Assembly (NCBI RefSeq): GCF_031877795.1
Contig: NC_133940.1
Location: forward strand, 4,775,985 to 4,839,984
From: Strix aluco
Lineage: Eukaryota; Chordata; Aves; Strigiformes; Strigidae
DNA: 64,000 nucleotides
Reading direction: 5' to 3'
Both the position numbers and the translations under genes were made by a program. Positions 106 through 22,072 of this stretch are shown here, in pieces; within the stretch, counting starts at the first letter, position 1, and every line of letters begins with the position of its first letter. Under the pieces are notes generated by a model. It was not told the DNA's origin. It was given only the letters and a program-made list of their open reading frames with translations, and did no database searches.

Positions 106-4720
<4,615 letters not shown>

Positions 4721-4762
4721 GTCGGCCCCTCCAGCCTCCTCCACGCTGTGCTCGGCAGGTTG

Positions 4763-19062: not shown

Positions 19063-19068
19063 GCATCT
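19063..19068. repeat. Target-site duplication, left copy (gcatct)
   Basis: The six bases gcatct directly precede the TGTGGGAG start of the 5' LTR and recur directly after the 3' LTR. Confidence 0.85.
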
Positions 19069-19588
19069 TGTGGGAGTGTCAGCTCTGTGCAGCTGTGGGA
19101 GATTCAATATGTTAAGAGTCAAATCATGTGTTACTGGTCAATGATTAAGAAGTAAGTGGGCATTGGGCTGTCAGCCCTGCACAGCTGGGGGAGATTCAAT
19201 ACTTAAGAGCCAAATCGACATTGGCCGGTGAGCTCTGTTTGGGGAGATCGGTGAAGGTGGAGAGCTCTGCTTGGGAGAACTCTGCTTGGGGAGCCAGGCA
19301 GGAGCTCTGTCCTGCGCTGGCTTGGAGAAGCAGTGAGGTTTGGAGGAGAAACAGGCCTTGGAAGAGCGATACCAGGCTGTGCTAGTGTGGTGAAGAAAAT
19401 GGCAGCACCGAGACTGCCTGTATGGTATGGAACTGTTTGTGGGATAAGAGTGTTGATGACTGTCTAGCTGCTGATTTGCTTATTGTGCAGTCAGAGCTAA
19501 GGTAGTGAGAGCGTAAGTGTGTACCATTGTAATAATGAAGGATTTTCCTTCTGCACTTCAATGGAGAGTCTGTGCCTCAGTTGCCACA
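19069..19588 (+). repeat. 5' LTR
   Basis: 520-bp LTR from TGTGGGAGTGTC to TTGCCACA. It matches the 3' LTR along its whole length, apart from a shorter set of GCTCTGCTTGGGAGA-type internal repeats. It lies about 700 bp upstream of the GLA start codon and points away from GLA. Confidence 0.93.
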
Positions 19589-19590
19589 GA

Positions 19591-19608
19591 TGTTGCCCCG
19601 TGTGAGGC
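19591..19608 (+). other. Probable primer-binding site, lysine-tRNA-like
   Basis: It starts two bases after the 5' LTR. By eye, 12 of 18 bases agree with the tRNA-Lys1,2 primer site used by several betaretroviruses. The assignment is tentative. Confidence 0.4.
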
Positions 19609-19732
19609 GGTGATAAGTGTGACCAGCTTGGATCACTCCGGTGGCAAACCTCACAGAACTTAAGAGCTGCTGTGAGGAAGCAGGAGCTGGCATCAATCAC
19701 CGCTGCAGGGTGAGTAAGGTGAGCTGGGGGGA

Positions 19733-20560
19733 GTGATGGGGAGTTTAATATCCTCGGAAGAAAAATATAAGGTGCATATTAACTCACATGCCTTGAAGAG
19801 AATTCTAAAGTGGGTGGCAGCTGCGGTTACTGCATTCACTGTTCTGACATGGGAGGAAGCAGGAGGAAGACTGTGGGAGTGTGCAACACGAGGGTATCAG
19901 GTTGCGGCAGAACTCTTGCCGACATGGAGAACTCTTTTTGAGATAATAAAAAGACAAGATAAGGAATGCGGTCAGTCTGTTAAGACAGAGGATGAGGACA
20001 CGTGTTCTGAACCCCTGCAGCAAGGTTTATGTGCTGGGTCTTTTGACTGCGATAATCCTTTAGACCCTGGCACTGTAAATCCTAAAAGAGACCCTGGCCT
20101 GTGTCCTCCCTTAGCGGGGGATGATCCATGGGGAAAAGTGAGGCAAGAAGCCTTGGCGCAAGGGGATATGGACATGGCGAGAAAGATTGTTGCTCCTCTA
20201 ATTTATGAGGCAGGACGTCAGCCATGTTGGGAAGGACTCCAATTTTCTGTTATTAAAGAACTACAGAAGAGCGTTAATGAGGACAGACTTAAACTCACAA
20301 CAGCTATACTGGAGGCAATCGCTCATGGCTGTACCCAGCATTCACATCCCCCCACCTGCAAGCTCAGAGTTGGCAGTGGCGGCCCCGGGCCTCCCCGAGG
20401 CCTCCCCCTGCCACGGAGCGACTGCCTGCGGCCGAGTCTGGCAATGCCATCGTCCATCCCGGCTTCCCTTCAACACAAAAAGCGACGGTTTTTTACAGAA
20501 GGTGTTGACACTGTGATGCGGTGTCCCTTGTCTATTCTAAAAGGACTAATTTGTATACTA
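19733..20560 (+). pseudogene. Gag-type remnant of the LTR element
   Basis: The reading begins MMGSLISSEEKYKVHINSHA, a short basic N-terminus like the matrix protein of class II retroviruses. Further on, CWEGLQFSVIKELQKSV resembles the start of the betaretroviral capsid. The part beyond about 20340 is GC- and proline-rich and not recognisable. The remnant is far shorter than a complete gag, and no nucleocapsid Cys-His boxes were seen. It is treated as a fossil. Confidence 0.7.
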
Positions 20561-20562
20561 AA

Positions 20563-20829
20563 GTATTATGGAACATGTGGACTATGCCAGTTTTGGTTAT
20601 CAGGTCACAAGCTGCTTTGCAGTATCAAGCCGTTATGGAACTCCAGATGACCTGAAAGAAATGACTGACGTTGCTCACTCAATGGGCATCCCTGTTCTGC
20701 TGGATGCTGTGCACAGCCGTGTATCAAAAAACTCCAGAGGTGATCTCAACAAATTTGATGGTGCAGATTCTTGTTTCTTCCATTCCGGCCATAGAGGAAA
20801 CCATCAGCTCTGAGACAGCAGGCTCTTTG
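20563..20829 (+). pseudogene. GBE1: GBE1-derived segment A inside the LTR element
   Basis: The plus-strand translation reads [44 protein letters not shown] and [12 protein letters not shown]. It aligns residue by residue with human 1,4-alpha-glucan branching enzyme from IMEHAYYASFGYQ to about WDSRLF, the start of the catalytic barrel. No intron interrupts it although GBE1 is a multi-exon gene, so the source was processed RNA. It is directly followed by segment B, which belongs upstream of it in GBE1. Confidence 0.88.
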
Positions 20830-20834
20830 ATATG

Positions 20835-21015
20835 CAAAGTGGTGATTTGTGCTCAAAATGGTGAACTCCTCTATCGTGCTTCACCTTGGGCAAGATACGT
20901 AGTTTGTGATGAAGACAAAGTGAATTACGATTGGGTACACTGGAATCCACCAGAGTCATATGTACATAAGCATCCTTCCCCCAAGAGATTAAAAAGCTTA
21001 AGAATCTATGAGTCT
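20835..21015 (+). pseudogene. GBE1: GBE1-derived segment B inside the LTR element
   Basis: The translation reads [20 protein letters not shown], then [19 protein letters not shown] and SLRIYES. It aligns with the part of branching enzyme (human KVVITS...GEILYRISPWAK to SLRIYES) that lies before segment A in the normal protein. About 37 residues that separate B and A in GBE1 are absent, and the order is reversed to A then B. The similarity stops cleanly at YES. Confidence 0.88.
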
Positions 21016-21084
21016 TGATTTAAAAACAAAGAAGGGGGAAATCTCTGGATACACCACATGGTCAACAAGCAATGGCTTTGTGTA

Positions 21085-21305
21085 AATGTAGATTGTAGTA
21101 TTTAAGTTAAAAATAATGTAGATTGTAATATTTGGTAAGTTTAAGGAAAATAATAAAATAATGCAGACTGTAGTATTTATTAAGCTTAAGGAAATAATGT
21201 AGATTGTAGTATTTGTTAAAAATAATGTAGACTGTAGTATTTGTTAAGCCTAAGGAAAATAATAAGATAATGCAGATTGGAGTATTTGTTAAGCTTAAGG
21301 CTTGT
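21085..21305 (+). repeat. Short tandem repeats in the 3' noncoding part of the LTR element
   Basis: About six imperfect copies of a 30-45-base unit built on AATGTAGATTGTAGTATTTG followed by TTAAGCTTAAGGAAA. They are AT-rich, with no reading frame maintained, between the GBE1 segments and the 3' LTR. Confidence 0.8.
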
Positions 21306-21471
21306 GTGATGGGATAAACTGTAATCAGTAGAGAAACTGCTTGTATGACTGGAGTAATGAGCCCCTCAAGGAGTTACCTTCCTTATTTTGTGATTATTCT
21401 ATGGATATTTTGTTTTCTGAGGTTTGCCTAAAGCTTAATTGGTAAAGCCTTTGCAGGTGCAGTTGTAAAAC

Positions 21472-21485
21472 AAGGAAGGGGGAGA
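21472..21485 (+). other. Polypurine tract
   Basis: AAGGAAGGGGGAGA abuts the 3' LTR, as expected for the plus-strand primer. A similar run, AAAGAAGGGGGAAA, lies near 21028-21041 just after GBE1 segment B. Confidence 0.8.
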
Positions 21486-22066
21486 TGTGGGAGTGTCAGC
21501 TCTGTGCAGCTGTGGGAGATTCCATATGTTAAGAGTCAAATCATGTGTTACTGGTCAATGATTAAGAGGCAAGTGGGCATTGGGCTGTCAGCCCTGCACA
21601 GCTGGGGGAGATTCAGTACTTAAGAGCCAAGTGGACATCAGCTGGTCAGCTCTGCTGGGTGAGCTCTGTTTGGGGAGCTCGGCGAAGGTGGAGAGCTCTG
21701 CTTGGGAGAGCTCTGCTTGGGAGAACTCTGCTTGGGGAGCCAGGCAGGAGCTCTGTCCTGTGCTGGCTTGGAGAAGCGTCAGCTCGGCTCTGTGCTGGCC
21801 CGGAGGAGCAGCAAGGGTTGGAGGAGAAACAGGCCTTGGAAGAGAGATACCAGGCTGTGCTAGTGTGGTGAAGAAACTGGCAGCACCGAGACTGCCTGTG
21901 TGGTATGGAACTGTTTGTGGGATAAGAGCGTTGATGACTGTCTAGCTGCTGATTTGCTTATTGTGACGTCAGCGCTAAGGTAGCGAGAGTGTAAGTGTGT
22001 ACCATTGTAATAATGAAGGATTTTCCTTCTGCACTTCAATGGAGAGTCCATGCCTCAGGTGCCACA
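21486..22066 (+). repeat. 3' LTR
   Basis: 581-bp LTR, 61 bases longer than the 5' LTR, mainly from extra copies of a GCTCTGCTTGGGAGA-like repeat and an added GGCTCTGTGCTGGCCCGG-type stretch. It ends AGGTGCCACA, next to the right target duplication. Confidence 0.93.
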
Positions 22067-22072
22067 GCATCT
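22067..22072. repeat. Target-site duplication, right copy (gcatct)
   Basis: Identical to bases 19063-19068. The sequence continues as ttgcagcc, host flank. Confidence 0.85.

Follow-up and report, generated by a model that had tools for sequence, protein, structure and literature searches.

Structure of the element and its GBE1 insert

The analyzed window, a stretch of 64,000 nucleotides on contig C10 of the Strix aluco genome, contains a non-autonomous LTR element of 2,998 bp, which was read from the window sequence at positions 19069–22066. The element is bounded by a 5' LTR of 520 bp (19069–19588, plus strand) and a 3' LTR of 581 bp (21486–22066, plus strand), both identified as repeats and with their ends read from the sequence. 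The hallmarks of an LTR retroelement are present: paired LTRs, TG...CA ends and a perfect 6-bp target-site duplication, GCATCT, at 19063–19068 and 22067–22072. This confirmed the intact LTR boundaries and the 6-bp duplication that an earlier note, made from the sequence alone, had described. A probable primer binding site at 19591–19608 (plus strand) resembles the complement of a tRNA 3' end, which we take to be that of tRNA-Met.

After a leader comes the start of a gag gene, mainly the part upstream of p24, together with a short downstream viral remnant (19736–20562, plus strand). The open frame from 19736 extends to 20650, out of the GBE1 frame. It is the sole long frame of the element in the list of open reading frames, and there is no room inside the element for a pol gene. 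No Pfam domain was detected in 19742–20320 at E-values up to 1. The region 19736–20562 is similar to the first part of the gag frame in a related element on contig C36, which adjoins one of the insert copies described below and has Gag_p24, zf-CCHC_5, dUTPase, protease, reverse transcriptase (RT) and integrase domains. Among the class II endogenous retrovirus (ERV) domains sought, the window element keeps the gag start only, and its placement in class II is indirect, by way of the C36 relative. Protein searches with its gag region returned three proteins, the two named ones being from owls (Bubo bubo and Strix aluco), and the gag of the relative returned six, of which the three named ones are also from owls and add Bubo scandiacus.

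The 3' viral remnant (21016–21485, plus strand) contains internal repeats and ends in a polypurine tract (about 21467–21485); it may include a remnant of env. The repeats lie in 21085–21300, with copies starting at 21106, 21170 and 21215. Polypurine-tract-like sequence occurs twice in the window, at 21467–21486 before the 3' LTR and at 21023–21042 right beside the insert, and the one to the right of the insert was also present in the relatives read that have no GBE1 sequence.

Inserted between the gag remnant and the 3' remnant is a single block of 452 nt at 20564–21015, whose translations match human glycogen branching enzyme with E-values of 6.7e-33 (residues 208–289, chain 5clt_A) and 8.2e-19 (residues 118–170). 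The corresponding exons of the host GBE1 gene on contig C2 are 91–96% identical to it at the DNA level. The match to GBE1, and a position between a gag-type remnant and the 3' LTR, had been proposed in the earlier note, and the match is supported by these values. The note had described two separate stretches within 20563–21015. The end of this interval was correct, the stretches turned out to be one insert, and its first base is 20564, as set by the host exon.

Alignment to the host exons fixed the junctions, as had been anticipated. The insert consists of the last 66 of the 91 nt of exon 6, from its nucleotide 26 (20564–20629), the whole of exon 7 (20630–20838) minus one deleted nucleotide (210 nt in the host), the complete exon 4 of 126 nt (20839–20964) and the first 51 of the 136 nt of exon 5 (20965–21015), the last 2–4 nt of which overlap the viral acceptor site. 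All four parts are on the plus strand, in the sense orientation relative to the element. The introns have been removed exactly, and the 6/7, 7/4 and 4/5 joins are all located precisely at host splice sites. The two GBE1 stretches abut exactly, and the earlier residues of the enzyme are encoded downstream of the later ones: at 20838–20839 (plus strand) the end of exon 7 is joined to the start of exon 4. This is a splice-exact back-splice with the remaining exon order kept, as in circular RNA (circRNA)-derived pseudogenes. The order 6-7-4-5 with its exact back-splice was overlooked in the first reading of the sequence.

The GBE1 frame is broken by a stop codon at 20811–20813 in the exon 7 part, a tryptophan codon in the host, and by the 1-nt deletion; both were seen in all six loci that are readable there. 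A functional GBE1 retrogene was ruled out, as the stop, the deletion and the permuted exons leave no open branching-enzyme frame, and a fragment arisen by segmental duplication was ruled out by the absence of introns. Most likely, the insert encodes no enzyme and is a passenger of the element.

Copies of the element and the empty site in its relatives

A genome search combined with readings of the individual loci placed the GBE1 insert at a minimum of seven loci, which lie on three contigs and differ in their flanks. These are the window copy, a copy on contig C36 and five loci on contig C40: at 21.86 Mb (C40a), at 29.55 Mb (C40b), at 15.498 and 15.508 Mb, and at 23.07 Mb. The copies at 15.498 and 15.508 Mb are an inverted pair with a shortened insert that is identical in both. 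They are located in an inverted repeat with 7.4-kb arms of 99.7% identity, and the pair was therefore counted as one insertion. At the 23.07 Mb locus, the insert breaks off some 19 nt after the left junction and gives way to other sequence. In the C40b copy (L014, about 4152–4748), some 600 bp of foreign sequence, solo-LTR-like by eye, lies inside the GBE1 segment. The 3' remnant is 390 to 469 nt long across the GBE1 copies.

The five loci that keep the left junction (window, C36, C40a, C40b and 23.07 Mb) agree there, apart from one base at the edge in C36, and the six that keep the right junction (window, C36, C40a, C40b and both arms of the pair) agree there as well. Compared with host GBE1, these last six also have in common the stop codon and the 1-nt deletion; in C40b, the base next to the deletion reads differently. 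Because junctions and mutations are common to the loci, the sequence comparison indicates one capture, followed by retrotransposition of the GBE1-bearing element. The differences from host GBE1 amount to 33/452 in the window copy, 15/452 in C36, 18/450 in C40a, 19/452 in C40b (joined segment) and 8/293 in the pair.

Target duplications could be read for three insertions. They are perfect in the window copy (GCATCT) and in C40a (GCCACC) and imperfect in the C40 pair (GATAAC/GATATA); the C36 and C40b copies have lost or interrupted 5' ends. The two LTRs of an element differ at 29 of 520 aligned sites in the window copy, at 26 of 562 in C40a and at 10 and 14 of 478 in the two arms of the pair. 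With approximately 2e-9 substitutions per site and year, the LTR divergence would correspond to roughly 5–15 million years.

Elements related by their 3' remnant were found at a minimum of 30 loci (best 40 of 336 candidates scored), six of which are insert copies. Eleven GBE1-free relatives were dissected and eleven were read at the site, L043 being added and L037 being without the site. The site is empty in 10 of the 11 relatives read, and the eleventh, L039, has a deletion that spans it. In the relatives, the left viral flank ends in ...GTATACTAAA (two variants), followed by 4–5 nt and then by TGATTTAAAAAC... or a near variant. The intervening nucleotides are GGCCT in five relatives, GGTC in two duplicate-like ones, and GGTCT, GACCT and GTCT in one each. 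In the GBE1 copies, the insert is preceded by ...ACTAAAG and followed by TCTTGATTT. Since the flanks are contiguous in the relatives, the insert is located at this site with at most 5 viral nucleotides lost, and none of the viral sequence beside it is duplicated. With a parental G(G)TCT, as found in 4 of the 10 relatives, TCT would be common to exon 5 (AATCT) and the acceptor, no viral base would have been lost, and the G that the copies have at a host A would be viral in origin. With a parental GGCCT, as found in 5 of the 10, only CT would be common to exon 5 and the acceptor, and the G at the host A would be a later change.

The relatives without the insert lie beside or around the GBE1 copies and have a related leader, gag start and LTR. 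The GBE1-bearing copies are not resolved as one clade by a 12-row tree of the 3' remnant (3 label changes, with 124 of 500 shuffles as low, and one starred branch), a result compatible with a single origin; five GBE1-free rows group apart from the GBE1 copies (99/98 support). One relative, L020 (7200–6300, minus strand), has a different gag-like fragment joined to the left viral stretch of the insert site, followed directly by the right stretch, which suggests that mosaics arise easily in this ERV family.

Taken with the copies that have the same junctions, the empty site in the relatives bears out what the earlier note had put forward, namely that an LTR element captured GBE1 sequence that then moved with it, and that the insert might define a multi-copy family. 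The host-genome search that it had suggested recovered further copies with the same GBE1 junctions wherever these are readable, as expected of a transduced family. Its proposal would have been refuted if the LTR family had carried the segment nowhere else and the segment had fitted an intron-containing GBE1 locus better, or if there had been no significant match to GBE1; the segment recurs elsewhere, lacks introns and matches GBE1 significantly. Intronless GBE1 sequence thus lies between viral sequences and moves with the element, as in the transduction of a host gene.

All 10 copy pairs show less divergence in the captured segment than in gag, 5 of them at p < 0.05 (Fisher), in a comparison where the pairs are non-independent, two copies have partial gag and C40b was entered as the joined segment. 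The lower divergence might be due to composition or to recombination between copies. In the window copy (19594–21484), the private changes scored for A/T to G/C were 23 versus 10 in gag, 16 versus 3 in the GBE1 part and 16 versus 7 in the 3' remnant; the same comparison gave 30 versus 51, 12 versus 10 and 19 versus 19 for the other four copies summed. The GC content of the window is 59.7%, and the bias of the window copy suggests GC-biased gene conversion. This ERV family is strongly concentrated on contig C40, of 49 Mb, which contains 5 of the 7 insert loci and 52 of 68 family match rows (scoring of the best 40 of 465 candidates). C40 may be the W chromosome and serve as a refuge for ERVs.

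Origin of the permuted exons

The host GBE1 gene contains exons 4, 5, 6 and 7 in this order on contig C2, and each of them was found once outside the elements in the genome search. With an exon numbering that presumably follows the human gene, they are located at 23500246–23500371 (exon 4, 126 nt), 23502692–23502827 (exon 5, 136 nt), 23505204–23505294 (exon 6, 91 nt) and 23506516–23506725 (exon 7, 210 nt), each with AG before and GT after it, and they sum to 563 nt. Introns 4, 5 and 6 are 2,320, 2,376 and 1,221 nt long, so that the four exons form a compact island, and introns 3 and 7 on either side of it measure 20,944 and 25,894 nt. Exons that circularise typically lie between long introns. 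An inverted match between introns 3 and 7 (798 nt, 65%, E 2e-37) would support circularisation weakly at best, because the same-strand match between these introns is stronger (954 nt, E 8e-55).

The order 6-7-4-5 corresponds to one continuous walk around a circle of exons 4–7, covering 80% of its 563 nt. The insert accounts for 453 of the 563 host positions, of which 452 remain after the deletion, and both of its free ends border a single missing arc of 110 nt, from nucleotide 52 of exon 5 to nucleotide 25 of exon 6. Given the permuted order and the exact back-splice, an RNA that was circular, or had its exons scrambled in some other way, is the most likely source, rather than fragments of ordinary mRNA. 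We infer that the donor was a circular RNA of GBE1 exons 4–7.

Based on these results, we consider it likely that a defective class II-like LTR element captured a circular GBE1 exon 4–7 RNA by copy-choice during reverse transcription and then spread. The basis for this is observed: the permuted order, the exact splice junctions, the empty site, the LTRs and target duplications, the insertions with different flanks and the shared mutations. During minus-strand DNA synthesis, RT would leave the viral RNA just upstream of TTGATTTAAAAAC, and the new 3' end would pair to exon 5 of the circular RNA through a match of 2–4 nt. RT would then copy exon 5 and exon 4, continue across the back-splice into exon 7 and on into exon 6, and resume on the viral RNA at the nucleotide that it had left or immediately beside it. 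The hybrid would integrate, and proteins supplied in trans would mobilise it further, giving rise to the seven or more present loci. Both joins would accordingly be products of template switching by RT rather than of DNA repair, and the later movement of the element was presumably aided by a helper. The betaretrovirus-like neighbor on contig C36 is the kind of element that would be able to help; it need not be the actual helper.

The return to the same viral position, with a loss of 0–5 nt, is cleaner than two independent template switches would be expected to give. Together with the lack of duplicated flanking viral sequence, this small loss at the empty site would also fit a cDNA of the circular RNA that was inserted as filler DNA during break repair in a resident provirus, which then transposed. 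The short match between the acceptor and exon 5 and the sense orientation are predictions of copy-choice and speak against repair, both of them weakly, since repair too can use short matches and would place half of its insertions in the sense orientation. The provirus changed in this way must moreover have been active afterwards, whereas copy-choice makes the hybrid directly in the replication cycle. We regard filler insertion as unlikely, and as the strongest of the alternatives.

Slightly less probable still is a linear, exon-scrambled GBE1 RNA, formed by trans-splicing of two pre-mRNAs or transcribed from an allele with tandem-duplicated exons 4–7. The same exon 7–4 junction and exon order would be expected from such an RNA. 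However, the genome contains a single set of exons 4–7 outside the elements, both ends of the insert border the one missing arc of a single circle, and trans-spliced RNAs are far rarer than circular RNAs (textbook knowledge). A duplicated GBE1 allele may have existed in the past.

Non-homologous template switching is common in retroviruses (textbook knowledge), which could favor a scenario in which pieces of ordinary GBE1 mRNA were captured twice, independently, and abut by chance, or one jump between linear mRNAs. Both pieces would then need ends located exactly at exon borders with zero extra bases. With exons of 126, 136, 91 and 210 nt, the odds that a random breakpoint falls on a border are, as a rough estimate, about 1 in 141, and those for two breakpoints about 1 in 20,000. 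The junction reads CTGAAG/GTGG in the linear 3/4 RNA, GCAAA/CTGG in the linear 7/8 RNA and GCAAA/GTGG in the element. The bases on either side of the slash differ between the two linear RNAs, and thus no microhomology would favor a jump to the exact join. On these junction bases, two linear captures were rejected, and we give this explanation very little weight. An assembly artefact or chance similarity is the least credible explanation. In its favor, two loci form an inverted pair with identical inserts, and 234 N occur in the stretch around one of them. For the family as a whole it is refuted by the spread of seven loci, with differing flanks, over three contigs and by target duplications at three insertions, two of them perfect.

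Circular RNAs from GBE1 have been described in other species. Two chicken circRNAs, gal-GBE1_0002 and gal-GBE1_0003, are catalogued, the first with a span of 5,711 bp and a reported ORF of 156 aa (PMC11091503). As it is given in that catalog, the 156-aa ORF fits none of the 10 subsets of exons 4–7 computed for the present host; the nearest subset ORF is 147 aa (exons 6–7), and exons 4–7 give 95 aa. Going by the catalogued values, gal-GBE1_0002 may be a different circle from the exon 4–7 one. In muscle from human patients with myotonic dystrophy, GBE1 is listed among the genes with raised circRNA pools (PMC6689976). The back-splice junction was absent from the four protein matches to the junction-crossing frame, three of which were read as exon 4 running into the intron and one as exon 7; as full-length GBE1 was excluded by length, this absence has no bearing on the circle.

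Relation to known captures of host sequence

The nearest precedent is provided by the circRFWD2 pseudogenes of the mouse (Dong et al. 2016 Cell Research, as told in the reviews PMC5408686 and PMC6110255), which are circRNA-derived and number at least 33 (PMC6110255). LTR sequences occur in the flanks of the mouse circRNA retrocopies, and LTR-mediated movement has been suggested (PMC5408686). Going by the reviews, the two cases are alike in that the genome contains multiple copies of circular-RNA exons in non-collinear order and that LTRs are involved, and unlike in that ours is from a bird and a different gene. For GBE1, the LTR element, the target duplications, the viral flanks and the empty site were read, which places the insertion into the viral backbone before the spread.

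Read-through transcription or linear mRNA is the usual explanation for the capture of host genes by retroviruses. Acute transforming retroviruses have captured oncogenes as spliced host exons, with deletion of viral genes and the need for a helper. The GBE1 element is similar in its retroviral backbone with deleted viral genes, its captured spliced exons and its probable need for a helper, and differs from these viruses in that it carries a metabolic gene fragment with a broken frame and permuted exons and forms a germline family in which the insert is under no evident selection. The maize LTR retrotransposon Bs1 is likewise non-autonomous and carries intronless exons from captured cellular gene fragments; it is, however, a plant element whose capture is described as linear, and it is not known to have a back-splice. 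The leader, gag start and LTR are related to those of betaretrovirus-like class II ERVs of owls (gag matches in Bubo bubo, Strix aluco and Bubo scandiacus), whereas the relatives read are without the GBE1 insert and the longer C36 neighbor keeps gag, protease, RT and integrase.

In a literature search that covered largely freely accessible papers, we found no report of GBE1, or of any circular RNA, captured in a bird retrovirus, and nothing on circGBE1. In the zebra finch, gbe1 is named among the four genes first known from the germline-restricted chromosome (PMC6884545). With the element described here, this makes two cases of extra GBE1-derived sequence in the bird germline; the occurrence of GBE1 in both is probably a coincidence.

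What is new here is a bird case for which viral acceptor, empty site and target duplications could all be read. A single genome provides the donor gene, the recipient virus, the empty site and the two junctions, and these point to a circular RNA donor. It is possible, and we suggest it tentatively, that circRNAs are genuine substrates for retroviral gene capture, copied in an out-and-back run of RT through the back-splice with almost no viral loss, and that the GBE1 element is the fossil of one such excursion that later became a transposing family. This leads to the testable proposal that retroviruses package circRNAs and copy them with their RT. The owl element would then be a bird parallel to the circRFWD2 pseudogenes of the mouse, and a fossil trace of a germline circRNA some millions of years old.
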